From Fodinibius roseus (GTDB taxonomy: Bacteria; Bacteroidota; Rhodothermia; Balneolales; Balneolaceae): a DNA stretch of 64,000 bases. The stretch covers positions 124,001-188,000 of the forward strand of contig NZ_FQUS01000009.1 of the NCBI RefSeq assembly GCF_900129315.1, written 5' to 3'. A program made the translations under genes and the position numbers. Positions 1,636 to 10,726 of the stretch are shown piece after piece; the stretch's first letter is position 1, and every line of letters starts with the position of its first letter. The notes below the pieces were generated by a model. That model saw only the letters and a program-made list of their open reading frames with translations, was not told the DNA's origin and made no database searches.

Positions 1636-1648
1636 TATTGAGTTAACA
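1636..1648 (+). repeat. Putative attL core (13-bp direct repeat with 10626-10638)
   Basis: TATTGAGTTAACA is identical at both places and brackets exactly the phage-like genes, with the integrase close to this end. A chance 13-bp match between two flanks of roughly 300 bp is unlikely, though AT-richness raises the odds. It is not part of a tRNA gene. Confidence 0.6.
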
Positions 1649-1747
1649 ATCAACCTACCTTTACACCCCTAAAATGCCCTTAAAAGTATTTAAATGCCGA
1701 TTTAGTTGTTGATATTTATCGTTATTTTCCGTTACTTATGGTAGAAA

Positions 1748-1762
1748 CGTTACTCAGTAACG
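1748..1762. promoter_or_regulatory. Inverted repeat, candidate operator upstream of the integrase unit
   Basis: CGTTAC-TCA-GTAACG is a perfect 6-3-6 inverted repeat ending 30 bp before the ATG at 1793. Two further half-site-like copies (CGTTATT and CGTTACTT) lie just upstream at about 1719-1738. The placement suits autoregulation by an element-encoded DNA-binding protein or Xis/Int arm sites. Confidence 0.4.
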
Positions 1763-1792
1763 ACAATTAACTTTATAATTAACTATGTTGTT

Positions 1793-2023
1793 ATGACTAA
1801 TAAAATATTCAACGACCTTTTAGAAAGAGCGAAAAAAGCTAAAACGATGAAACAGTCTCTAAATATTGACAATGAGACTTGGGATTTATATGACAAAGAG
1901 AGAATTACGATAGAAGAACTCAATAAGATTACTAAAGTATTAGACACCAAGCTAACAGAAGTTCAAAAGAAACTTAATTCCGGTGATACTGACGATATCA
2001 CTGAATGGTTTGGGGGGGACTAA
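1793..2023 (+). CDS. Small acidic element protein, possible regulator
   Basis: This 76-residue protein is predicted to be helical and highly charged (LERAKKAKTMKQSLNID, then YDKERITIEELNKITKVL). It has no classical HTH that I can assign firmly, but the IEELNKITKVLDTKL stretch could be part of a small XRE/Cro-like regulator. It is the first gene inside the left attachment site and ends 3 bp before the integrase start codon, so the two are very likely co-transcribed. A role as repressor, Xis or integrase accessory factor is possible but not shown. Confidence 0.6.
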   Translation: MTNKIFNDLLERAKKAKTMKQSLNIDNETWDLYDKERITIEELNKITKVLDTKLTEVQKKLNSGDTDDITEWFGGD

Positions 2024-2025
2024 TT

Positions 2026-3054
2026 ATGGGTATTAAGATTCGCGAAAAAAAGTTATCAAGCGGTAAGAAATCCCTTTATTTGGATATTCATCATAATGGT
2101 GAGCGTTCTTATGAGTTTCTGAAAATATATCTCACCGGAGACGAAAAGGACAAAGAGAAGCGGCGCAAGGCTGAGATTATCCGGGGGAGACGGTTGGAGC
2201 AAATTCAGAACCAAACCTACGGCCTGAAAACAGATAACAAAGAGGCGTCCTTTTACCAGTTCTTTCAGAAGATTGTCGATAAGAATAAAGAGAAAGGAAT
2301 CCGCAACCATGAAGCCGTGATGAAAAAGATTAAAGAGTATCACGGCAGGGAGACCTTGCAATTTAAGCAGATCACGAAGCGATGGGTTTGGGGATTCCGG
2401 GACTTTCTTGTTGAAGATTCTAAAAAGAAGAACACCGCCCATAATTATTTTACCATATTTAAAGCTGCGATTAATTCCGCTATTAAGCGCGACATCATAT
2501 CTCATAACCCGATTAAAGGAGTTGATAACATTGGATCAGAGGATACACTTAGAAACTTTCTAACTACTGATGAACTAAAGAAGCTCTGGAATACCCCATG
2601 TAAGAAGCGGGTAAAAGAAGCGTTCTTTTTTGCCTGTAATACCGGCCTGCGGATATCAGATGTGAAGCGGATTCAGTGGGGGGACGTGAAGGATGATAAA
2701 ATCTCCTTTCCCCAGAAAAAAACAACGAAAGTGAATCATGTTCCCCTTAACAGGCAGGCTAAGGAGCTGATGGGAGAGAGGGGAAACCCTAATGAGTATG
2801 TTTTTAATATTCAGCGGCGTGGCAATGTTTGGAAGGTAGTCAACAAATGGGGGAAACGCGCCAACCTGGATAAAGAGATTAGTTTCCATGTGAGCCGTCA
2901 CACGTTCGCGACACAGCTGCTTTCTAATGGAGCCGACATCTACACCGTAGCCGAACTGTTAGGCGTGGATCTAAAGACCGCTGAAGTTTATGCCAAGATC
3001 GTTGACCAGAAAAAAGAGGACGCTGTAAACCGTTTACCTGAAATCAACTTTTAG
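2026..3054 (+). CDS. int: Tyrosine recombinase/integrase of the element
   Basis: The protein has 342 residues from ATG 2026; an upstream in-frame ATG at 2005 would overlap the previous gene and is less likely. An N-terminal arm-type DNA-binding region (about 1-65) is followed by a SAM-like core-binding domain (about 75-165) and the catalytic domain. Active-site residues are R209 (NTGLRISD), a lysine in the KKTTK turn at about 231-235, H288 and R291 (HVSRHTFAT) and the nucleophile Y322 (AEVYAKI). The second histidine/tryptophan position, normally LLGH, reads LLGV, so V314 replaces it. That substitution occurs in some active relatives but is unusual. It should catalyse integration at the TATTGAGTTAACA core and excision with help from the Xis-like protein at 3773. 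Confidence 0.93.
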   Translation: MGIKIREKKLSSGKKSLYLDIHHNGERSYEFLKIYLTGDEKDKEKRRKAEIIRGRRLEQIQNQTYGLKTDNKEASFYQFFQKIVDKNKEKGIRNHEAVMKKIKEYHGRETLQFKQITKRWVWGFRDFLVEDSKKKNTAHNYFTIFKAAINSAIKRDIISHNPIKGVDNIGSEDTLRNFLTTDELKKLWNTPCKKRVKEAFFFACNTGLRISDVKRIQWGDVKDDKISFPQKKTTKVNHVPLNRQAKELMGERGNPNEYVFNIQRRGNVWKVVNKWGKRANLDKEISFHVSRHTFATQLLSNGADIYTVAELLGVDLKTAEVYAKIVDQKKEDAVNRLPEINF

Positions 3055-3058
3055 AATT

Positions 3059-3646
3059 ATGACTGATAAAGAAAAACTTTTACAAGAAATGCAGAAGCAA
3101 GCAAAAAGGGCTAAAGAATTTCGGAAAGAGCGAGAGGAGACAGCCAATCCTGATATTTGGCTATTAAGCCCAACAATACCTAAAAGATTAGCTATGCGTC
3201 AATTTATTAAACGGGCAACTGATGATAAAACAAGGGGAATACAAGATTTATTGAATCAGGTAAAAGCCACAAGGAAAGGAATAGAAGCAATTTACAAGGG
3301 TAGTCCTAATATTAAAGAGCCTGGTTACAAATATTATCGTAACTCGGATGCACTAATAGAATTTATTGAAGAAGAATATTTAAACGAGGTACAAAGAGAT
3401 AATGGGAAGGAATCCGAGAATAATATTTCTGAAGATTTAAAAAGACTTATTCATAGTATTGCACTTAGAAAATCAAAACATAATAATAGCCACAGTTACC
3501 AAGAAATAGCTGATGCACTTAGTTTATATCATAATCCCAAGTTAGAACTGAACGGGGAACAAGTAGCCGAAAAAATAGGGGTTCGACCCAATGTTTTTAG
3601 TACATGGAAAACAGATCTTGATGATAAAATAAAAGAATTAAATTAA
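3059..3646 (+). CDS. Element protein of unknown function with C-terminal HTH-like segment
   Basis: This 195-residue protein starts 4 bp after the integrase stop. It is rich in Lys, Glu and Asn and predicted mostly helical. The N-terminal 30 residues look coiled-coil, and near the C-terminus LNGEQVAEKIGVRPNVFSTW resembles a helix-turn-helix (EQVAEKIGVRPNVFSTW). I recognise no named family. Linkage to int suggests a role in control of the element's lysogeny, excision or replication, but that is inference. Base use is more AT-rich than in the neighbouring host genes, as expected for transferred DNA. Confidence 0.6.
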   Translation: MTDKEKLLQEMQKQAKRAKEFRKEREETANPDIWLLSPTIPKRLAMRQFIKRATDDKTRGIQDLLNQVKATRKGIEAIYKGSPNIKEPGYKYYRNSDALIEFIEEEYLNEVQRDNGKESENNISEDLKRLIHSIALRKSKHNNSHSYQEIADALSLYHNPKLELNGEQVAEKIGVRPNVFSTWKTDLDDKIKELN

Positions 3647-3772
3647 CATTACGCACAAAAGATTAAGAGAGACTCCTTGATTCAATAGGATTCAATACTA
3701 TTCAATATTCATTCAGTTTGCCTACCTGTTACATTACTATTGAAGACAAAACAATAACAAACTTCGTTAGTA

Positions 3773-3997
3773 ATGACTTCAAACAAACCACTCACTGCCG
3801 AAAACGCTGCCGAATATCTCGACATTTCAAAGGCTCACCTGTACAAGCTCACCAGTACAGGTAAGATTCCGCATTACAAGCCCAATGGAAAACGACTGTA
3901 TTTCTATCAGGATGATCTTGATGGTTATATCCGTTCCGGGAGAGTTAAAACGAATGCCGAACTGAAATCGGAAGCTGAAGGATTTATAACGCAATAA
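3773..3997 (+). CDS. Excisionase/AlpA-family HTH DNA-binding protein
   Basis: This 74-residue protein has a MerR-like winged-helix (HTH_17 type): LTAENAAEYLDISKAHLYKL, a TGKIPHYKPNGKR wing and FYQDDLDGYI. This is the classic short excisionase/AlpA form of phages, satellites and Bacteroidota mobile elements. Such proteins bend attachment-site DNA to promote excision, or, like AlpA of P4-type satellites, activate the integrase and satellite genes. An AT-rich leader of about 125 bp precedes it with GTTA-type repeats that could be its binding sites. Its stop codon runs straight into a hairpin region before the rep gene. Confidence 0.85.
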   Translation: MTSNKPLTAENAAEYLDISKAHLYKLTSTGKIPHYKPNGKRLYFYQDDLDGYIRSGRVKTNAELKSEAEGFITQ

Positions 3998-3999
3998 AA

Positions 4000-4061
4000 A
4001 AGCCCCGCTGTTTCAGCAGCAGGGCAGGAGACGACACCTGAATATACGTGTTGTTCTCCTG
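4000..4061. promoter_or_regulatory. Two adjacent stem-loops in the leader of the rep-like gene
   Basis: First, GCCCCGCTG…CAGCAGGGC (about 4003-4026) forms a 9-bp stem with one mismatch. It is preceded by an A-run, so on the minus strand it reads as a stem followed by T6. Second, CAGGAGACGACAC (4025-4037) pairs with GTGTTGTTCTCCTG (4048-4061), leaving one bulge. The second stem ends 28 bp before the ATG at 4089. This could be an attenuator or counter-transcribed copy-control region for the rep gene, with the first stem ending an antisense RNA; function is inferred. Confidence 0.45.
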
Positions 4062-4088
4062 AAATGCACACTATAAACGGAGACGACT

Positions 4089-4886
4089 ATGAATAAAAGA
4101 ATAAATCCCTACAAACTTTGGAACGGCTCATTTGTTCCTGAATGGCTAATGCCACGTACAGAAATATCCCAGGGTGCTAAATTGGCTTATGCAAGATTAG
4201 CCCGATTTGCCGGGAAAAATGGCTACTGCAACCCCAAAATATCAACGCTTGCTGCTGAAATTGGGGTGTCGGATCGTCAATGCAGCACCTATTTGAACGA
4301 ACTTGTTGAGTATGAACTAATTGCAAAAAAACAGCGTGGTTTGGGCAAGTCAAACGAATATCACTTCTATTCCCATAAATGGATGGAACTGCCTTCAGAG
4401 GTTTCAGAGGCTTCAGGTCAAGACATGAAGAAAACTTCAGGACAGGGCGGAAGAAAACTTCATGACAAGGATGAAGATAACTTCAAGTCCCATAGTAAAG
4501 AGAGTCATAATAAAGAGAGTCAAATAGAAGAGAGAGAACTCTCCAACCTTTCTTTTGATGATTTTGATGTAGAGGAACAACCATTACAGATGGTAACCCT
4601 GCATATCTATCAGGAGATTAAAGACTTTAACGAACACCTTGATACCCTTAAGGGTGCAACGCTTGAAGAATGGATTCAGCCCCTTCAGCAGTTAATAGAC
4701 GAAAGCGAGTCATTGGACGCCCATAAGCTAAATGACGTATTCTCTTTTGTAAAGAGGCATGATAACGGCTGGTGGATGGACAAGATAAAGTCTACAGACT
4801 CATTAAAGAAAAATTTTGCTAGTATTTACGGCCAATACAAGAAAGAGCAGAACGAGATATTGCCAGAATACCATGCTTTAGTGTAA
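4089..4886 (+). CDS. Winged-helix replication-initiator-like protein
   Basis: This 265-residue protein has an N-terminal domain of plasmid/phage replication or HTH_36-type proteins: EISQGAKLAYARLARFAG followed by PKISTLAAEIGVSDRQ and a wing with LNELVEYELIAKKQRGLGKS (about 20-95). The middle (105-160) is polar and low in complexity, rich in Ser, Glu and His. The C-terminal 100 residues are helical with no motif I can name. The position between the AlpA-like gene and the capsid gene matches the replication module of PICI/P4-like satellites. It lacks any visible helicase, primase or Rep nuclease signature, so it may instead be a transcription regulator. Confidence 0.7.
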   Translation: MNKRINPYKLWNGSFVPEWLMPRTEISQGAKLAYARLARFAGKNGYCNPKISTLAAEIGVSDRQCSTYLNELVEYELIAKKQRGLGKSNEYHFYSHKWMELPSEVSEASGQDMKKTSGQGGRKLHDKDEDNFKSHSKESHNKESQIEERELSNLSFDDFDVEEQPLQMVTLHIYQEIKDFNEHLDTLKGATLEEWIQPLQQLIDESESLDAHKLNDVFSFVKRHDNGWWMDKIKSTDSLKKNFASIYGQYKKEQNEILPEYHALV

Positions 4887-4896
4887 ATCGAAGATT

Positions 4897-4986
4897 ATGA
4901 TTAAAAAGATATTGGCACAATTCAGCAACGACTGGGACTTGCTAATCATTTTAACCCTGTATCTGATAGCAACGCAACTCCTATGA
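4897..4986 (+). CDS. Possible 29-residue hydrophobic peptide
   Basis: An ATG frame starts 10 bp after the rep-like stop and encodes a charged N-terminus followed by a strongly hydrophobic segment (WDLLIILTLYLIATQLL) that could span a membrane once. It is too short to judge by composition alone. If real, it is the only candidate in the element for a membrane-active (holin-like or superinfection-exclusion) peptide. Confidence 0.3.
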   Translation: MIKKILAQFSNDWDLLIILTLYLIATQLL

Positions 4987-5016
4987 AATTAACCATTAAC
5001 CAAAAAAAATAACACC

Positions 5017-5220
5017 ATGATTAAGACTTTAGAGAAACTCCAAACCGAAGGATTTATATCACGGGTTGAGCTGACAATGGCAAAGAAAGCGATAGCTGCC
5101 GACCGGAAAGATCTCCTTTCTGGCTTTATGGATGAAGTGGCCCGGAGATTAGAAACAGCCGACATGAAGCTGACCCAAGAGGAGCTAATTGAAGAGGCTA
5201 AAGAACTTATTAATAACTGA
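5017..5220 (+). CDS. Small helical element protein of unknown function
   Basis: This 67-residue protein is charged and predicted all-helical (KLQTEGFISRVELTMAKKAI, then LTQEELIEEAKELI). No cysteine, membrane segment or known motif is seen. It lies between the replication and packaging modules. A scaffold, capsid-size redirection factor or regulator would be plausible by position only. Confidence 0.5.
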   Translation: MIKTLEKLQTEGFISRVELTMAKKAIAADRKDLLSGFMDEVARRLETADMKLTQEELIEEAKELINN

Positions 5221-5294
5221 AATGCCTTGTACTAAACCCATGATTTTATTATATTTAGGTAACGCACTTGATGCTACAGACCCGCCTTTTAAGC

Positions 5295-5349
5295 AGTCTG
5301 TTCAAAGGTTCAAGCCGCCTACCGATAACTTGAATTTAAAGAACAGACT
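5295..5349 (+). promoter_or_regulatory. Long-range stem-loop abutting the capsid gene start
   Basis: AGTCTGTTC (5295-5303) and GAACAGACT (5341-5349) are perfect 9-bp inverted complements with a 37-nt loop. The 3' arm ends 3 nt before the ATG at 5353, where the ribosome must bind. This could restrain capsid translation or serve as an operator pair; it is seen in sequence only. Confidence 0.4.
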
Positions 5350-5352
5350 ATT

Positions 5353-6465
5353 ATGAATACTGATGATCCATTAGTTGAGGCCGTAGAAAATGGCCTCGAT
5401 GAAGTACAACAGAACGTAAACAAATCCCAGAAAGAGCTTAGAGAAGAGATTAAGACGCTGAAAAACCGCGTTGATGCCGCCGAGTCGAAAGCAGGCCGGT
5501 TGAATACTGGTGGAAACCAAATCTCTTTTAAAGATCAGCTCCAAACGGAACTGGCAACCAAAGCCGATAACCTCCGAGCACTTAAAGATGGTACGGGCGG
5601 CAGGGTGAATATGCAGGTAAAGGCTTCGATTTCAGATGATGCCCGCGAAGGTGCTACGCTGCCGGGTGTGCATTTTGATCCCGACAGAACAGAGCATATT
5701 TCCATGTTTCTGCCACAGGCCTCAACCAACGGCAATTCAGTCCCCTATCTTAAGGAGACTGCATACACTGACGGCACAGAGGGCCAAACCGAAGGAGAAG
5801 TTAAGGGGGAAAATAATTTCACAATTACCCAAGAGAACGCTTCGGTAGAAACCCGCGCCAGCTTCATTTCAGTACCAAAACAAATGTTGGATGATGTGAG
5901 CGTGTTATCCTCATATTTGAGCCGTAAAATGACCTCAAGGATCCTTGTGGACGAAGACACTCAGCTCTTGTATGGTACGGGGGTAAGTCCGCAGATTACA
6001 GGATTGACGCTCGAGGCTGCGGGATGGAGTCCCGTTTTAAACACTGCTTCATTCTATGATTGCCTGGCTGATGCTTCCCGTCAAGCAGAAGTGTTAGAAT
6101 ACAACACTGATACTATTCTGCTGCATAAGAACGATTACTGGAAGATGGCTACCGAAAAGACAAGCGGATCAGGTGAGTATTTACACCCAGCCGGTGTCCG
6201 AAGCGGAACCCAGCGTTTACGAGTTGACGGTATCCGGTGTGCACCAACCACAGCAGTTGCCGAAGGGGAGTTTTTAGTAGGCGACTTTACCCAGGGCGCA
6301 ACCTATGTGTCCCGCGAAGGTGTAAACGTGCGCTTCTTTGAGCAGGATTCCGATAACGTCCAGCGTAACCTTGTTACTGTACGAGCAGAGCAGCGAATCG
6401 CATTAGCGATACATAATCCACTTGCCTTTGTGTATGGACGATTTGCACAAGGTGGAGTAAGTTAA
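5353..6465 (+). CDS. HK97-family phage major capsid protein
   Basis: The protein has 370 residues. Residues about 5-50 form a heptad-rich coiled coil (VQQNVNKSQKELREEIKTL), corresponding to the delta/scaffold domain of HK97 gp5. From about 60 onward the HK97 fold follows: a loop region with PGVHFDPDRTEHISMFLP, the spine-helix segment VETRASFISVPKQMLDD, then SSYLSRKMTSRILVDEDTQL followed by LYGTGVSPQ, and a C-terminal P-domain/A-loop ending in AIHNPLAFVYGRFAQ. It should assemble the icosahedral shell. No prohead protease gene lies beside it, so maturation may be protease-free or depend on a helper phage or on the Ntn-like protein at 9244. It is followed by a hairpin at 6511-6552. Confidence 0.9.
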   Translation: MNTDDPLVEAVENGLDEVQQNVNKSQKELREEIKTLKNRVDAAESKAGRLNTGGNQISFKDQLQTELATKADNLRALKDGTGGRVNMQVKASISDDAREGATLPGVHFDPDRTEHISMFLPQASTNGNSVPYLKETAYTDGTEGQTEGEVKGENNFTITQENASVETRASFISVPKQMLDDVSVLSSYLSRKMTSRILVDEDTQLLYGTGVSPQITGLTLEAAGWSPVLNTASFYDCLADASRQAEVLEYNTDTILLHKNDYWKMATEKTSGSGEYLHPAGVRSGTQRLRVDGIRCAPTTAVAEGEFLVGDFTQGATYVSREGVNVRFFEQDSDNVQRNLVTVRAEQRIALAIHNPLAFVYGRFAQGGVS

Positions 6466-6510
6466 TCTTCCTGCCGGCACTGCATAGCAGTCGCTTCGCA
6501 GGGAATAATA

Positions 6511-6562
6511 CCCCCCGCTTTTTGTTTACCGTGTTTACGTTTGAGCGGGGGGATTTTAATAC
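6511..6562 (+). terminator. Hairpin after the capsid gene, probable intrinsic terminator
   Basis: CCCCCCGCT (6511-6519) pairs perfectly with AGCGGGGGG (6544-6552) across a 24-nt loop and is followed by ATTTTAATACTG. The stem is strong though the U-tract is interrupted. It may reduce read-through from capsid into the terminase genes. Confidence 0.55.
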
Positions 6563-6581
6563 TGTTTTAAACAATTTTATT

Positions 6582-6857
6582 ATGAGTGATAAACCAGACA
6601 AATCAAGCAACTGGGGCGGTGCACGTCCGGGAGCTGGCAGACCACCCAAAGCTGATGAAGAGTTGATGATAAAAAAGATTGACGCAGCCCTTGCTCCTGA
6701 TGAGGCATGGGAGCAGCTGGCTAATAAGGTCAATGATGGAAACGTGCAAGCGATACGCCTGTATTTACACTACAGGTACGGAAAGCCCAAAGAACGGGTT
6801 GAGCTGGACACCAAAATGTTAGCCGGTTTTAAGGTGATACGTGATGAAGGAAATTAA
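6582..6857 (+). CDS. Phage terminase small subunit-like DNA-binding protein
   Basis: The protein has 91 residues from ATG 6582; the frame opens earlier at 6522 but that segment runs through the hairpin. It begins SSNWGGARPGAGRPPKAD, the basic, Gly/Pro/Arg-rich AT-hook-like start typical of small phage proteins directly upstream of a large terminase. A helical domain follows (EAWEQLANKVNDGNVQAIRL), ending in YRYGKPKERVELD. It overlaps the large terminase start by 14 bp, implying translational coupling. It should recognise the packaging site; in satellites a dedicated TerS redirects packaging to satellite DNA. Confidence 0.75.
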   Translation: MSDKPDKSSNWGGARPGAGRPPKADEELMIKKIDAALAPDEAWEQLANKVNDGNVQAIRLYLHYRYGKPKERVELDTKMLAGFKVIRDEGN

Positions 6858-8181
6858 ACTCCATCCTAAACAAGATGATGCCTATGAGCTTCTAACCGAA
6901 AGCAGAAAACGCTTTGTCTGTTTTGGCGGCGGTTCGCGCGGTGGTAAGTCCTGGCTGGGCTGGGTATGGCTTATCCTTTCTTGTATGCAACATCCTAACA
7001 CACGGTGGTTTGTGGGCCGTGAAGAGCTGAAACGTCTTCGCAATACGACCTTAATGACGTTCTTTAAAGTGTGCGGGGAATACAACATTCCTACCGATGT
7101 TTACAGCTACAATAAACAGGATCACTACATTGAGTTTGAGAACGGATCTCGGATTGATCTATTAGAACTTAAATACAAACCTTCCGATCCCTTATTTCAG
7201 CGTTTTGGTAGTTCCGAATATACCGGGGGATGGATAGAAGAGGCCGGAGAGATAGAACACGATGCCTTTGATATCCTAAAAACAAGAGTAGGGCAGCACC
7301 GCAACCAAGAATATGACCTCACCCCTGGAAAAATACTCATTACCTGTAACCCGGAAAAGAACTGGCTATACTTTAATTTTTACCTGCCCTGGAAAAAGGA
7401 CAACCTTCACAAAGATTACGCTTTTATACAGTCTCTCTATGATGATAACCCCTACAGAGAACCAGGCACTGACCAGCAGCTGGGGGCCTTAATAAACGAA
7501 GCACAAAAGCAACGCCTGAAACATGGTAATTGGGAGTATGCCGATGATCCGGACGCCTTACTTTCCCATTCAGACCTACTGGGAACCCAAGAGGTAGAGA
7601 TACAGAAAGGAACAGCCTATTGCGGGGCCGACATTGCCCGGTACGGATCAGACTCCACAACGTTTGCTAAGTTTAACGGCAACCACTTAGAGAAGCTCAA
7701 AACCTTCGATAACAAGGATAATGCAGAGGTAGCCAACCGGCTGCTTGCCTTCATAGCTACAGAGGCTATACTACCTAAAAACTGCGGTATTGATACGGTA
7801 GGACTGGGAGCCGGTGTATTTGATAACATGAAAGAAAAGGGTAAGACCTGCACGGAAGTTATTTCAGGAGCTAAACCCACAAAGCAATATGATAGTTTCA
7901 GCTTTAAGAACCTGCGCAGTCAAATGTGGTGGCAGTTCAGAGAGGACGTAAAGAACAAGAAGATCGTTATTGATTTCAATGATGAAGAACTCCGAAGCGA
8001 CCTAACAGCACCCCGTTACAGTATTGTAGGGGAGAAGATGATCCAGGTTGAAAGTAAGTCCGACATTAAGAAACGCCTGGGACGCTCCCCGGATAAAGGG
8101 GACGCCGTTGTCTATGCCAACGCTATGAGAGCAGGCATCATTAAAACGAAAAAGATATTACGTGTTTCAATGGCAGGATAA
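6844..8181 (+). CDS. Phage terminase large subunit (packaging ATPase and nuclease)
   Basis: The protein has 445 residues from ATG 6844; a GTG lies at 6841. Positions are counted from that GTG. The ATPase Walker A is FGGGSRGGKS (about 28-37), Walker B ends in WIEEAG (131-136) with the catalytic glutamate next to it, and TCNPEKNW (about 168-175) is the coupling motif. The RNase H-like nuclease domain has D264 (CGADIARYGSDS), D318 (CGIDTVGLGAGV) and D421 (DKGDAVVYA). All key residues are present, so this is an intact DNA-packaging motor subunit. It would normally dock on a portal, which is not seen in the element, so it may use a helper phage portal. Confidence 0.93.
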   Translation: MKEIKLHPKQDDAYELLTESRKRFVCFGGGSRGGKSWLGWVWLILSCMQHPNTRWFVGREELKRLRNTTLMTFFKVCGEYNIPTDVYSYNKQDHYIEFENGSRIDLLELKYKPSDPLFQRFGSSEYTGGWIEEAGEIEHDAFDILKTRVGQHRNQEYDLTPGKILITCNPEKNWLYFNFYLPWKKDNLHKDYAFIQSLYDDNPYREPGTDQQLGALINEAQKQRLKHGNWEYADDPDALLSHSDLLGTQEVEIQKGTAYCGADIARYGSDSTTFAKFNGNHLEKLKTFDNKDNAEVANRLLAFIATEAILPKNCGIDTVGLGAGVFDNMKEKGKTCTEVISGAKPTKQYDSFSFKNLRSQMWWQFREDVKNKKIVIDFNDEELRSDLTAPRYSIVGEKMIQVESKSDIKKRLGRSPDKGDAVVYANAMRAGIIKTKKILRVSMAG

Positions 8182-8283
8182 CCAAGTAATTGCTTTGATT
8201 ATACAAGTATGATTCAAGGTTAAACTGTTCAATGTTAAACTATAAAGATATACAGATAAGATATAACATAAGTTATTATTAAC

Positions 8284-8583
8284 ATGAAATATCCTCTTAT
8301 ACACTTTAAAGACTGTTTTTTAGTTATGAGTAACGTTTCCGGTAACAAATTGACAGGATGTCACACTAAAACGAACCCTATTGTCATGTTTGAACCACAG
8401 ATAGAAGAGCTTCGCCAGTACATGGGCCACTTGGATGAAAAGATCGCAACGTACCGGAAGCAGGGCAGAGACCCCGGCCGACTTATCGAAAACAAGGCCA
8501 GGGCAGCCAATACGATAGCACAGCTGAAGCAGGCCCAGCAGGGTAATACTACACCATGCCTAAAGGGGAGATCGCCCCGCTAA
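8284..8583 (+). CDS. Small coiled-coil element protein
   Basis: The frame encodes 99 residues, but the well-behaved part starts at the internal ATG 8386 (MFEPQIEELRQYMGHLDEKI…), a charged helix pair of about 65 residues. The first 34 residues look less protein-like, so the shorter start is plausible. No family is recognised. Location directly after the large terminase is where phages place a portal or connector, but it is far too small for a portal. Confidence 0.45.
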   Translation: MKYPLIHFKDCFLVMSNVSGNKLTGCHTKTNPIVMFEPQIEELRQYMGHLDEKIATYRKQGRDPGRLIENKARAANTIAQLKQAQQGNTTPCLKGRSPR

Positions 8584-8644
8584 CGGCAAATATGAAAGCC
8601 GATATACATACTTTTATACACATTAACTGAAAAACACGAATATT

Positions 8645-9217
8645 ATGCACTTTGACGCGCAAACGATGTGGAGCACCAATAACAATAATACTTTTAAAGG
8701 TACGGGGGTTCACCTGGATTCTGTTCAGGAGCGTTTCAGCTTAGGGGACAGCTTATGGTTTGAAAATGGAGATGGATACCTGGGGAACCTGCAAATAGCA
8801 GATACGCTTTCAATGGGAGCTGCGGGACAGATAACAAATACGAATAATGATTATTCATTAGATGAGGACGGTCTATCCTACCAGGTACCCGATGATACGC
8901 TTGATATCAGCAAGTCTGTAACCTGGGAGAATGGGGGAAGTGTAGTTGCTCAAATTGGAGCCGCACATGACACAACCGGAAACTTTGATTTGTTAGAATA
9001 TAATTCTGGACTTCATAGTTTTAAAGTGAATGGTAATCAGATAATCGGATTGCAGGATAATCTGGCCTTCTTTAATAAGCCTCCTGTAGTTCCCCGGCTA
9101 ACAGATACAGAGAGAGATAATCTAACTGTTCCTACTGGCTCTATCATCTTTAATACTGATGCCAACCGATTTCAGGGAATGAACCTGAACGGAAACTGGA
9201 AAGATCTAAGTCAATAA
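8645..9217 (+). CDS. Fibre/decoration-like structural protein
   Basis: The protein has 190 residues, rich in Asn, Gly, Asp and Thr with predicted beta structure and no cysteine. The C-terminal segment PRLTDTERDNLTVPTGSIIF followed by NTDANRFQGMNLNGNWKDL matches a motif common at the ends of phage tail-fibre and Bacteroidota surface beta-helix proteins (PRxTtxqRdaI…P-GxxxyNTdtnrfqxyn…W). The N-terminus has no signal peptide. It could be a head fibre or capsid decoration protein; a tail-fibre role would need tail genes that are absent here. It lies between the terminase block and the Ntn-like gene in the same orientation. Confidence 0.65.
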   Translation: MHFDAQTMWSTNNNNTFKGTGVHLDSVQERFSLGDSLWFENGDGYLGNLQIADTLSMGAAGQITNTNNDYSLDEDGLSYQVPDDTLDISKSVTWENGGSVVAQIGAAHDTTGNFDLLEYNSGLHSFKVNGNQIIGLQDNLAFFNKPPVVPRLTDTERDNLTVPTGSIIFNTDANRFQGMNLNGNWKDLSQ

Positions 9218-9243
9218 TCTTACACCCCAAAAAATTAAATATT

Positions 9244-9879
9244 ATGTCCGCAGTAGCCACAATCAGAACACCCGAACAAAGTATACTCTTATCCGATGGA
9301 TTGGCCGTTGATACAAGCGGGGCAGACCCCGATAATTTTCAGCTTACCGAAGATCGTATTCATAGCCGGGACTGTAAAAAAGTAGCTAAGATAAATGATA
9401 CAGTAGGTTTGCTCTGGGTAGGGAATGGCGTAACCTTGGTTGACGAGTTTGCCACCCTTGCAAAAGGACGCACCGGCCGGGAGGTTGCCGATGAGCTTTC
9501 AGAGTTTCTTAAACTAAAGACTGATAGCAGCCTATACAACGAACCCTGGTATAACATCAATGTAAGTATTGCCTGTTATGAGAACGGCCAGATGTGGGGT
9601 TACAGTGTCCGGTCTAAAACACCCATTCCCCTGAAGCCAACCCGCAGCCCCGTAAGTACCGGTTGTTACTGCATGGCAGCCCTCAAAGATCCCGGTAAGG
9701 CATCTCAGGAGCTGGAGCAGCGATTCGTTAGCCACAGAGCCACAAAGAACGTGAGACAGTCCGCAATAGCAGCTTTTACCGACTTTGTAAAAGAAGATGA
9801 TTTGTTAGGCGGTGAGATATTCTGTGAGGTGATAAATCCAAAGACACAAAGCAAGTTTAGAAAGGCTCTGATGAATTAA
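9244..9879 (+). CDS. Proteasome-fold (Ntn-hydrolase-like) protein of the element
   Basis: The 211-residue protein begins MSAVATIRTPEQSILLSDG, which can be aligned to the start of HslV/proteasome beta subunits. If Met is removed, Ser2 takes the nucleophile position normally held by Thr1 and D18 falls where catalytic Asp17 lies. The later SRDCKKVAKINDTVGLLWVG matches the strand block around Lys33 (S-K-x-x-K-K-I), with Arg42 in place of the lysine. GNGVTLVDEFATLAKGRTGR resembles the following helix. No signal peptide is present. It may be a capsid-maturation protease, a host-directed peptidase or an inactive structural relative. The fold call is moderately supported; activity is uncertain because Thr1 and Lys33 are both changed. 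Confidence 0.55.
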   Translation: MSAVATIRTPEQSILLSDGLAVDTSGADPDNFQLTEDRIHSRDCKKVAKINDTVGLLWVGNGVTLVDEFATLAKGRTGREVADELSEFLKLKTDSSLYNEPWYNINVSIACYENGQMWGYSVRSKTPIPLKPTRSPVSTGCYCMAALKDPGKASQELEQRFVSHRATKNVRQSAIAAFTDFVKEDDLLGGEIFCEVINPKTQSKFRKALMN

Positions 9880-9944
9880 CCCTCTGATTTGGTAAGTAGG
9901 CTTATTTAATCAATATTACTGGTACTCTCTTGATGAATAGTTAG

Positions 9945-9981
9945 GCCCTGCAGGTTGATAGCTTGCAGGGCTTTTAATTTT
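9945..9981 (+). terminator. Intrinsic terminator between convergent element genes
   Basis: GCCCTGCA (9945-9952) and TGCAGGGC (9964-9971) form a perfect 8-bp stem with an 11-nt loop, followed by TTTTAATTTT. It closes the rightward structural transcript just before the convergent gene at 9984. The A-rich left side is weak, so it probably acts mainly on the plus strand. Confidence 0.75.
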
Positions 9982-9983
9982 AA

Positions 9984-10367
9984 TCAAATCTCAATTGTAA
10001 AAGGATCATAAGGCCCCTCAATATTGCCACCAAAAATGTTGTTTACCCTCCTGTTGATCATGGCCCTGAATATGGGTTCTATCAAATCCTTTAGGTCTAA
10101 TGTATAGCCCCTTATTACCTCTTTGTAAGGGTTTTCAAATAATTCAGCATACTCAACCGCATAAGGCATTGTGAAAGCAACTTCATTATCACCTATGGTT
10201 ATATCTAACTCTGAATTTATTTTATTTAATGATGGCTCGAGTTCCTTTAATCCCTTGGGCTTTTTGGCATAGTCTTCAAATTTTACTTGAGCCCTAATAC
10301 GAAGTATAAGAAAATCCCCCTCATATTCTGTGTCAATAATTTCTACATTAAATGTATATTCATCCAT
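9984..10367 (-). CDS. Reverse-strand element gene of unknown function (possible cargo)
   Basis: The protein has 127 residues from ATG 10367; the frame continues 20 codons upstream but those read poorly. The product is acidic, of mixed alpha/beta type, beginning MDEYTFNVEIIDTEYEG and ending GGNIEGPYDPFTIEI. No signal peptide, membrane segment, zinc site or known motif is visible. It is the only gene in the element in this orientation and sits beside the right attachment site. In many satellites and prophages that position holds accessory genes, often for phage defence or host modulation. That link is positional inference only. Confidence 0.55.
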   Translation of the reverse strand: MDEYTFNVEIIDTEYEGDFLILRIRAQVKFEDYAKKPKGLKELEPSLNKINSELDITIGDNEVAFTMPYAVEYAELFENPYKEVIRGYTLDLKDLIEPIFRAMINRRVNNIFGGNIEGPYDPFTIEI

Positions 10368-10726
10368 ATTGTACCCCGTCTTTTGATGAAGAATTGAAAA
10401 GTAAGTTATAATATTATATCGAAAAGCCAAATTCCGAACGAATCCCTTTCCGAAAGATTTAACACTAACTTAATATGAAAGCGCTGGCAGTTCCTTATAT
10501 TCTGTTACTCAAAGATCCAAGTATAAAAGAAAAAAAGGAAACCGTTATTATAACGTTACCAGTTGGATTTATGACCGATGATAAGTAGTTGTTTTTATTA
10601 TACTTATCGCCAGGTCAAGCCATACTATTGAGTTAACATTATTCTCCTTTTTTTCGGATATATTTAGGATCTCAAAATAGAGAACAGCACACACGGCATA
10701 TACACTATTAATTTAAGTACGAGATA
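10368..10726. other. Intergenic region with the right end of the element and pstS upstream DNA
   Basis: About 360 bp without a gene. The left part up to about 10638 belongs to the element and includes ATAACGTTACCAG-type sequence reminiscent of the CGTTA repeats at the left end. From 10639 to 10726 only 88 bp of host DNA remain in front of pstS. I see no clear Pho-box. Confidence 0.5.
10626..10638 (+). repeat. Putative attR core (13-bp direct repeat with 1636-1648)
   Basis: TATTGAGTTAACA is identical to the left copy. It lies after the last element gene and 88 bp before the pstS start, so the empty site would be the intergenic space between the NYN gene and pstS. Confidence 0.6.

Follow-up and report, generated by a model that had tools for sequence, protein, structure and literature searches.

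A 9.0-kb integrated element of Fodinibius roseus encoding a capsid and a terminase without a portal, organised like a phage satellite

We analysed a stretch of 64,000 nucleotides from Fodinibius roseus (Bacteroidota, Rhodothermia; assembly GCF_900129315.1, contig NZ_FQUS01000009.1, positions 124,001 to 188,000), below referred to as the window, in which positions 1636-10638 are occupied by an integrated element of 9.0 kb with exact direct repeats of 13 bp at either end. Twelve of its 13 genes are on the forward strand, the sole exception being the open reading frame (ORF) for a 148-aa protein, and their order is that of an inward-pointing integrase and an AlpA-like gene, followed by replication and then by late genes (Table 1). 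Searches of the element proteins against Pfam and PHROGs, from which the family assignments are taken, confirmed what the original prediction had read from the letters alone, namely intact genes, at this place, for an integrase, an AlpA/excisionase-like protein, a replication protein, an HK97-type capsid protein and the small and large terminase subunits (TerS and TerL). TerS has no Pfam match, and its identity rests on a match of about 50% to the TerS that adjoins a 69%-identical phage TerL. The capsid protein possesses a full-length HK97 domain along with a long N-terminal region, and the motifs of TerL are intact, including both Walker motifs (A at position 29, B at 129) and, in the nuclease, three acidic motifs (262, 316 and 416). 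The coding density of the element is 86%, and its G+C content is 41.8%, versus 46.1% for the remainder of the window. An Rfam search gave no match.

The other species of the genus, 11 in number, all possess the NYN-domain gene of the left flank with pstS directly next to it, and the site being thus empty in 11 of 11 congeners, the element is a mobile element inserted between the NYN gene and pstS. In eight of these species the attachment (att) core GAGTTAAC, with matches on its flanks, is found as a single copy at the empty site. Among the genomes compared, the insertion is specific to this genome, and its ends are fixed to within the 13-bp core. The comparison of empty and occupied sites that had been proposed as a check also revealed no congener with a full prophage at this position. 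The core, which is conserved in the congeners, holds the palindrome GTTAAC. As the right end lies about 90 bp before the start of pstS, the insertion may alter the regulation of phosphate transport.

Table 1. Features of the integrated element, in coordinates of the window (HTH, helix-turn-helix; Ntn, N-terminal nucleophile).
Feature	Position	Strand	Basis or remark
attL core TATTGAGTTAACA	1636..1648	none	13-bp exact repeat of 10626-10638
Small ORF, 76 aa	1793..2023	+	weak Cro/C1-type HTH match (E 0.028, under the threshold)
Tyrosine integrase, oriented inward	2005..3054	+	PF00589 4.6e-25, PF13102, PF17293
195-aa protein	3059..3646	+	no significant family match
AlpA/excisionase-like HTH_17 protein	3773..3997	+	PF12728 8.6e-14; phrog_66 excisionase 8e-7
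Replication-initiator-like protein (HTH_36, O/DnaD-like)	4089..4886	+	PF13730 1.8e-12; phrog_270 1.2e-16
67-aa protein	5017..5220	+	no confident family
HK97-fold major capsid protein, 370 aa	5353..6465	+	PF05065 1.5e-28; phrog_10 5.9e-35
TerS, 91 aa from ATG at 6582	6582..6857	+	~50% identity to L004 phage TerS; overlaps TerL start
TerL	6841..8181	+	phrog_2 8.3e-32; PF04466 3.1e-10; 69% identity to phage contig L004
99-aa protein	8284..8583	+	no family match
190-aa tail-fibre-like protein	8645..9217	+	short weak matches to tail-fibre/tail proteins
211-aa 20S-proteasome-like (Ntn-hydrolase fold) predicted peptidase	9244..9879	+	structure prediction, structural matches
148-aa protein	9984..10430	-	no family match
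attR core TATTGAGTTAACA	10626..10638	none	pstS start ~90 bp further on

None of the element proteins matched a portal, connector, S78/ClpP protease, tail or lysis family in Pfam or PHROGs, and the same Pfam search, applied as a positive control to the phage contig L004 (IMGVR_UViG_3300026094_000039), recovered a portal (3e-38), an S78 protease (3e-19), a connector and a head-completion protein. All frames of at least 150 aa are accounted for, the longest one without a classical assignment being of 211 aa. The portals known to us are about 300 aa or longer, and thus there is no room for one in the unassigned frames. A hidden portal is ruled out by frame length together with the absence of PF04860, the portal family, from the entire host genome, and a hidden classical prohead protease by the lack of any S78/ClpP-type match in the element. 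By family searches and frame lengths, the complete late operon of a prophage (portal, tail, lysis) is absent, and no family typical of P4-like satellites (Sid/Psu/Delta, alpha primase) was matched by the element proteins. The claim that portal, connector and lysis genes are missing was thus upheld, and so was the claim of a missing protease and tail as far as the S78/ClpP and tail families are concerned, though it needs to be amended for a proteasome-like predicted peptidase and a weakly fibre-like protein. Neither was a second credible TerL found in the host genome; weak TerL matches on contigs C20 and C25, considered as signs of a resident helper phage, resemble PhoH and RecD. The helper on which the element presumably depends would therefore have to be external or use a portal of an unrelated family.

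The same lack recurs in other elements. One example is found in the host genome itself, whose other HK97 capsid (contig 28, ~121,250-130,170; loci L011 and L012) belongs to a second portal-less element, flanked by tRNA-like 21-bp repeats and encoding an integrase, AlpA, an initiator, a P27-type TerS, a capsid, a ClpP-type protease and a kinase-like protein, with neither portal nor TerL. Further examples of portal-less capsid elements are L098, L099, L100, L101, L103 and probably L102, which lies at a contig edge, and several of these sister elements possess a capsid and no TerL. In a survey of 294 related genomes, in which matches to PF05065 (capsid) and PF04860 were compared and the loci inspected, eight of the classifiable HK97 capsid loci were portal-less and nine were accompanied by a portal (in genome G079, on another contig). 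In the capsid tree, six capsids from portal-less elements fall together in a clade made up of satellites alone (99/94). Across the phylum, evenly sampled with 345 genomes, nearly all capsid loci from classes other than that of the host stand near a portal or belong to a full phage, one apparent exception being L217 (7210-15183, genome G356), with an integrase, an HTH protein, an HK97 capsid, a 600-aa protein that looks like a tape measure and no PF04860 portal. Two further candidates, G426 and G451, negative for PF04860, were rejected, both being full phages. In L098 (10463-10672), L099 (10642-10866), L100 (10924-11178) and the contig 28 element (a 138-aa ORF, L011 18426-18842) a small gene stands right before the capsid gene, and these small proteins share a terminal motif, YDSFR or WDSFR, possibly marking a packaging specificity factor.

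The sizes of these elements, taken from flanking direct repeats as att-to-att lengths (repeat lengths in brackets), are also similar. The window element measures 8,990 bp, the contig 28 element 8,899 (21 bp), L098 ~8,550 (13 bp), L099 ~8,710 (14 bp), L100 8,405-8,609 (27 or 23 bp), L101 8,201-8,417 and L102 ~9,015. Two elements with no recognised capsid gene fall close to these, L016 with 9,241 (17 bp, tRNA end) and L223 with 8,648 (72 bp, tRNA-like), and two elements are longer, L224 (10,767), which also lacks a recognised capsid gene, and, with less certainty, L103 (9,671). Most of the measurable elements are thus of 8.2-9.2 kb despite a differing content, with or without capsid, TerL or protease, suggesting a packaging limit. 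L016, L223 and L224 carry TerS/TerL, tail-terminator or fibre-like genes along with a proteasome-like protein; L224 and L016 also encode a kinase-like protein, and L224 a primase. Searches for defence families returned weak kinase matches in sister elements and nothing else.

As to the origin of the capsid-TerS-TerL block, the phage L004 possesses the order TerS-TerL-portal, followed by a protease, a capsid and a connector, and the order of the element, which is the reverse, with the capsid first, cannot be derived from it by deletion, so that the element does not appear to be a simple deletion product of a phage of this type. The sequences compared have diverged unevenly: identity to the nearest phages is 68-69% for TerL and only 34-37% for the capsid (for L004, 69% and 34%, with TerS at about 50%). 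A Niabella genome contains the same portal-less block, 28% identical in the capsid and 38% in TerL, and followed by chromosomal genes, the 5' part of that element being cut off by a contig end. In the capsid tree the window capsid groups weakly with the phages L004 and L107 (83/52), and that of Niabella is placed with phages other than these. Among the genomic loci fetched, L098, which belongs to the satellite clade, has the closest counterparts of the integrase (38% identity) and AlpA (47%) of the window element. It may be that an old satellite backbone acquired its capsid-terminase block from a phage. Both in TerL compared with L004 and in the capsids of the sister elements, differences at third codon positions are about double those at first positions, and their excess over second positions is larger still. 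Scans of IMG/VR with the capsid, TerL and the 211-aa protein revealed no further capsid-TerS-TerL element; the many TerL matches lacking a portal call in that database are not taken as evidence, as they most likely represent phages whose portals were missed by a small profile.

The two genes near the right end deserve separate attention. The 211-aa protein has no match in family searches; its homologues are a 206-aa protein of L016 (7e-8) and proteins in L223 and L224, and a search of the PDB with a profile of all four gave weak matches (best 0.013), for the most part to proteasome subunits. An AlphaFold model from the single sequence was of no use (pLDDT, the predicted local confidence, 41), but with the four homologues a model was obtained with pLDDT 80 and a predicted template-modelling score (pTM) of 0.81, and the best 50 structural matches listed for it in the PDB consist of 20S proteasome subunits without exception (best 4e-8, template-modelling score ~0.5). 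Of the profile and structure-prediction methods that had been proposed for uncovering a hidden portal or protease, the profile searches found no portal, and structure prediction for the 211-aa protein gave, in place of a classical protease, a proteasome-like peptidase fold. Residues S2, D18 and K46 are invariant across the four homologues; upon removal of the initial methionine the first two take positions 1 and 17, those of Thr1 and Asp17 in proteasomes, and K46 falls in the segment aligned with the proteasome Lys33, so that, by the model, an active Ntn-type peptidase is predicted. The proteasome fold is also found, unannotated, in proteins of tailed phages, such as Vibrio phage VpV262, Pseudomonas phage Noxifer and Gordonia phage Daredevil (BFVD Q8LT63 and others). 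The neighbouring 190-aa protein is weakly fibre-like, judging from two short matches, of residues 150-189 to cyanophage tail-fibre proteins (52% identity, 1e-3) and of residues 47-77 to a Salinibacter phage tail protein (58%, 2e-2). A fibre-like or similarly placed protein is encoded ahead of the proteasome-like gene in the window, L223 and L224, and in L016 a tail-terminator gene is located two genes upstream. The 211-aa protein was also considered as a prohead protease, which is thought unlikely since its three relatives are in elements with no recognised capsid gene, and a role at the tail tip is likelier for it than one in capsid maturation.

Among known satellites, an inward integrase, AlpA and the order of integration, replication and late genes separate phage-inducible chromosomal islands (PICIs) from prophages (PMC10111431), and this is the order of the element, with its inward integrase and AlpA/HTH_17 protein. 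It is thus organised like a capsid-bearing PICI, the likeness being one of gene content and order. A capsid without a portal is not novel in itself, as it has already been described in PICIs, and a capsid gene is present in 21 of the 29 reference Gram-negative PICIs (PMC10111431). Gram-negative capsid PICIs such as EcCICFT073 and PmCI172 (PMC6092414, PMC10111431) resemble the element in size class, inward integrase, AlpA/HTH_17, replication followed by late genes, a lone HK97-type capsid gene and sometimes TerS. The element, however, has an O/DnaD-like initiator and not the primase of the Pri-Rep type, and it possesses TerL and the proteasome-like and fibre-like late genes; its host belongs to another group. 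Another example is the cos-type Staphylococcus aureus pathogenicity islands (SaPIs) of the SaPIbov5 type (PMC8569155), which also encode their own diverged HK97 capsid homologue and have no satellite protease identified; the element differs in encoding both TerS (lacking in SaPIbov5) and TerL, as well as an AlpA-type control gene, with no Stl-type repressor recognised.

The original prediction had set the element against capsid-forming PICIs (cf-PICIs). These likewise encode a capsid protein, TerS and TerL, but in addition carry a portal, a head protease, connectors and HNH (PMC10690885), none of which was found in the element by Pfam and PHROGs. That it is leaner than a cf-PICI therefore stands, while, of the known kinds, PICIs with a lone capsid gene come closest, as represented by SaPIbov5 with its Ccm protein and by gammaproteobacterial PICIs (PMC10111431, PMC8569155). 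The Streptomyces satellites MulchRoom and MiniFlayer (PMC10690885) also encode capsid and terminase, but along with a portal, a scaffold and a head-tail adapter, and without an identifiable primase. PICMI, a satellite of Vibrionaceae with its site in fis, encodes no capsid genes, unlike the element, which has a capsid gene and resides between the NYN gene and pstS. L004, whose TerL and TerS are similar, is a full phage, and is a candidate for a relative of the helper or of the donor of the module. What is new is the host group, the combination of TerS, TerL and capsid without a portal, and the pair of proteasome-like and fibre-like late genes. It is plausible that the group as a whole represents a new satellite family.

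The label of a phage satellite is well supported, a discrete, intact and portal-less mobile element with empty sites in the congeners, within a group of similar size, being what would be expected of a satellite that depends on a helper, and we consider it likely that the element is an integrated PICI-like satellite that builds a shell and a motor of its own on the portal of a helper. An infecting helper phage would trigger the element, the integrase and the AlpA-like protein would excise it at the 13-bp core, and the initiator would replicate it. Its capsid protein, alone or mixed with that of the helper, would then form a small HK97-type shell on the helper portal, and its TerS and TerL would select the DNA of the element and pump it through that portal; the helper would supply the connectors, the protease that processes the capsid, lysis and most of the tail. 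The likely target or site of action of the fibre-like protein and the predicted peptidase would be the tail tip and not the capsid. Several points weigh against this reading. It is unusual for a complete motor to come without its portal, and the search for a helper, which covered the capsid, portal and TerL families only, identified none. For the element as a whole no close relative turned up, and so its activity cannot be judged from its spread. The codon pattern of TerL may stem from selection during its time in phages, the size of about 9 kb could come from shared ancestry and not from head capacity, and, by analogy with EcCICFT073, whose transfer was unaffected by deletion of the capsid gene (PMC6092414), the capsid need not be used. 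A more specific proposal, of a satellite family in this class with its own shell and full motor, a helper portal and a fibre-like and peptidase pair altering the tip of the stolen tail, we hold to be rather doubtful; if true, the satellite would define the head of the particle and its host range alike.

Of the alternatives, the one that survives best, and that we regard as possible if somewhat on the unlikely side, is that the satellite capsid fills only some positions, for example the pentamers, and restricts helper heads to a small size, with shell, portal and protease being mainly those of the helper. The precedent is Ccm of SaPIbov5, a diverged capsid homologue only 23% identical to the capsid protein of the helper, which reshapes helper heads built with the portal and capsid protein of the helper and is the only satellite protein in them (PMC8569155, PMC6893505). 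The stronger divergence of the capsid than of TerL from the nearest phages, and the sister elements that have a capsid and no TerL, are in agreement with such a role. On the other hand, the element, unlike SaPIbov5, has TerS, and with it an intact TerL, and its capsid protein retains the full-length HK97 domain and the long N-terminal region. It is unlikely, in our estimate, that the late genes are hitch-hiking or interference cargo, with the element travelling in full-size helper particles and the capsid and terminase being dispensable or poisoning helper assembly. The dispensable capsid of EcCICFT073 speaks for it, as does the observation that late zones of PICIs seem to have been captured from helpers as clusters (PMC10111431), while the intact motifs of TerL, the pattern of coding selection in the sister capsids and the same portal-less order in the distant Niabella genome speak against it.

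The decay of a normal prophage that lost its portal, tail and lysis genes by deletion would explain the clear phage origin of TerL, TerS and capsid. The frames, however, are all open, the att sites are precise, the sites in the 11 congeners are empty, the gene order is not a deletion of the phage order, AlpA accompanies an inward integrase, and the same lack recurs in many elements; we therefore agree with the original prediction in disfavouring decay, which seems very improbable. Domestication of the capsid genes in service of the host, as a compartment or a gene-transfer agent, would fit a genome in which no resident helper is visible by the capsid, portal and TerL families, but the genes are absent from the 11 other species and come with their own integrase and clean att sites, and the gene-transfer agents known to us encode portals and tails, making this the least credible of all.

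In conclusion, the element extends the capsid-carrying satellites to this bacterial class, for which no description was found in the open-licence literature searched. With eight of about 17 classifiable HK97 capsid loci being portal-less, counts of prophages based on capsid genes would be inflated in related genomes. The satellites described so far range from those free of a capsid (PICMI), through those with a single capsid gene (Ccm), to those making full heads (cf-PICI), and a shell and a motor without a portal fill a gap in this range, raising the question of whether two different capsids and motors may make use of the portal of one and the same phage.

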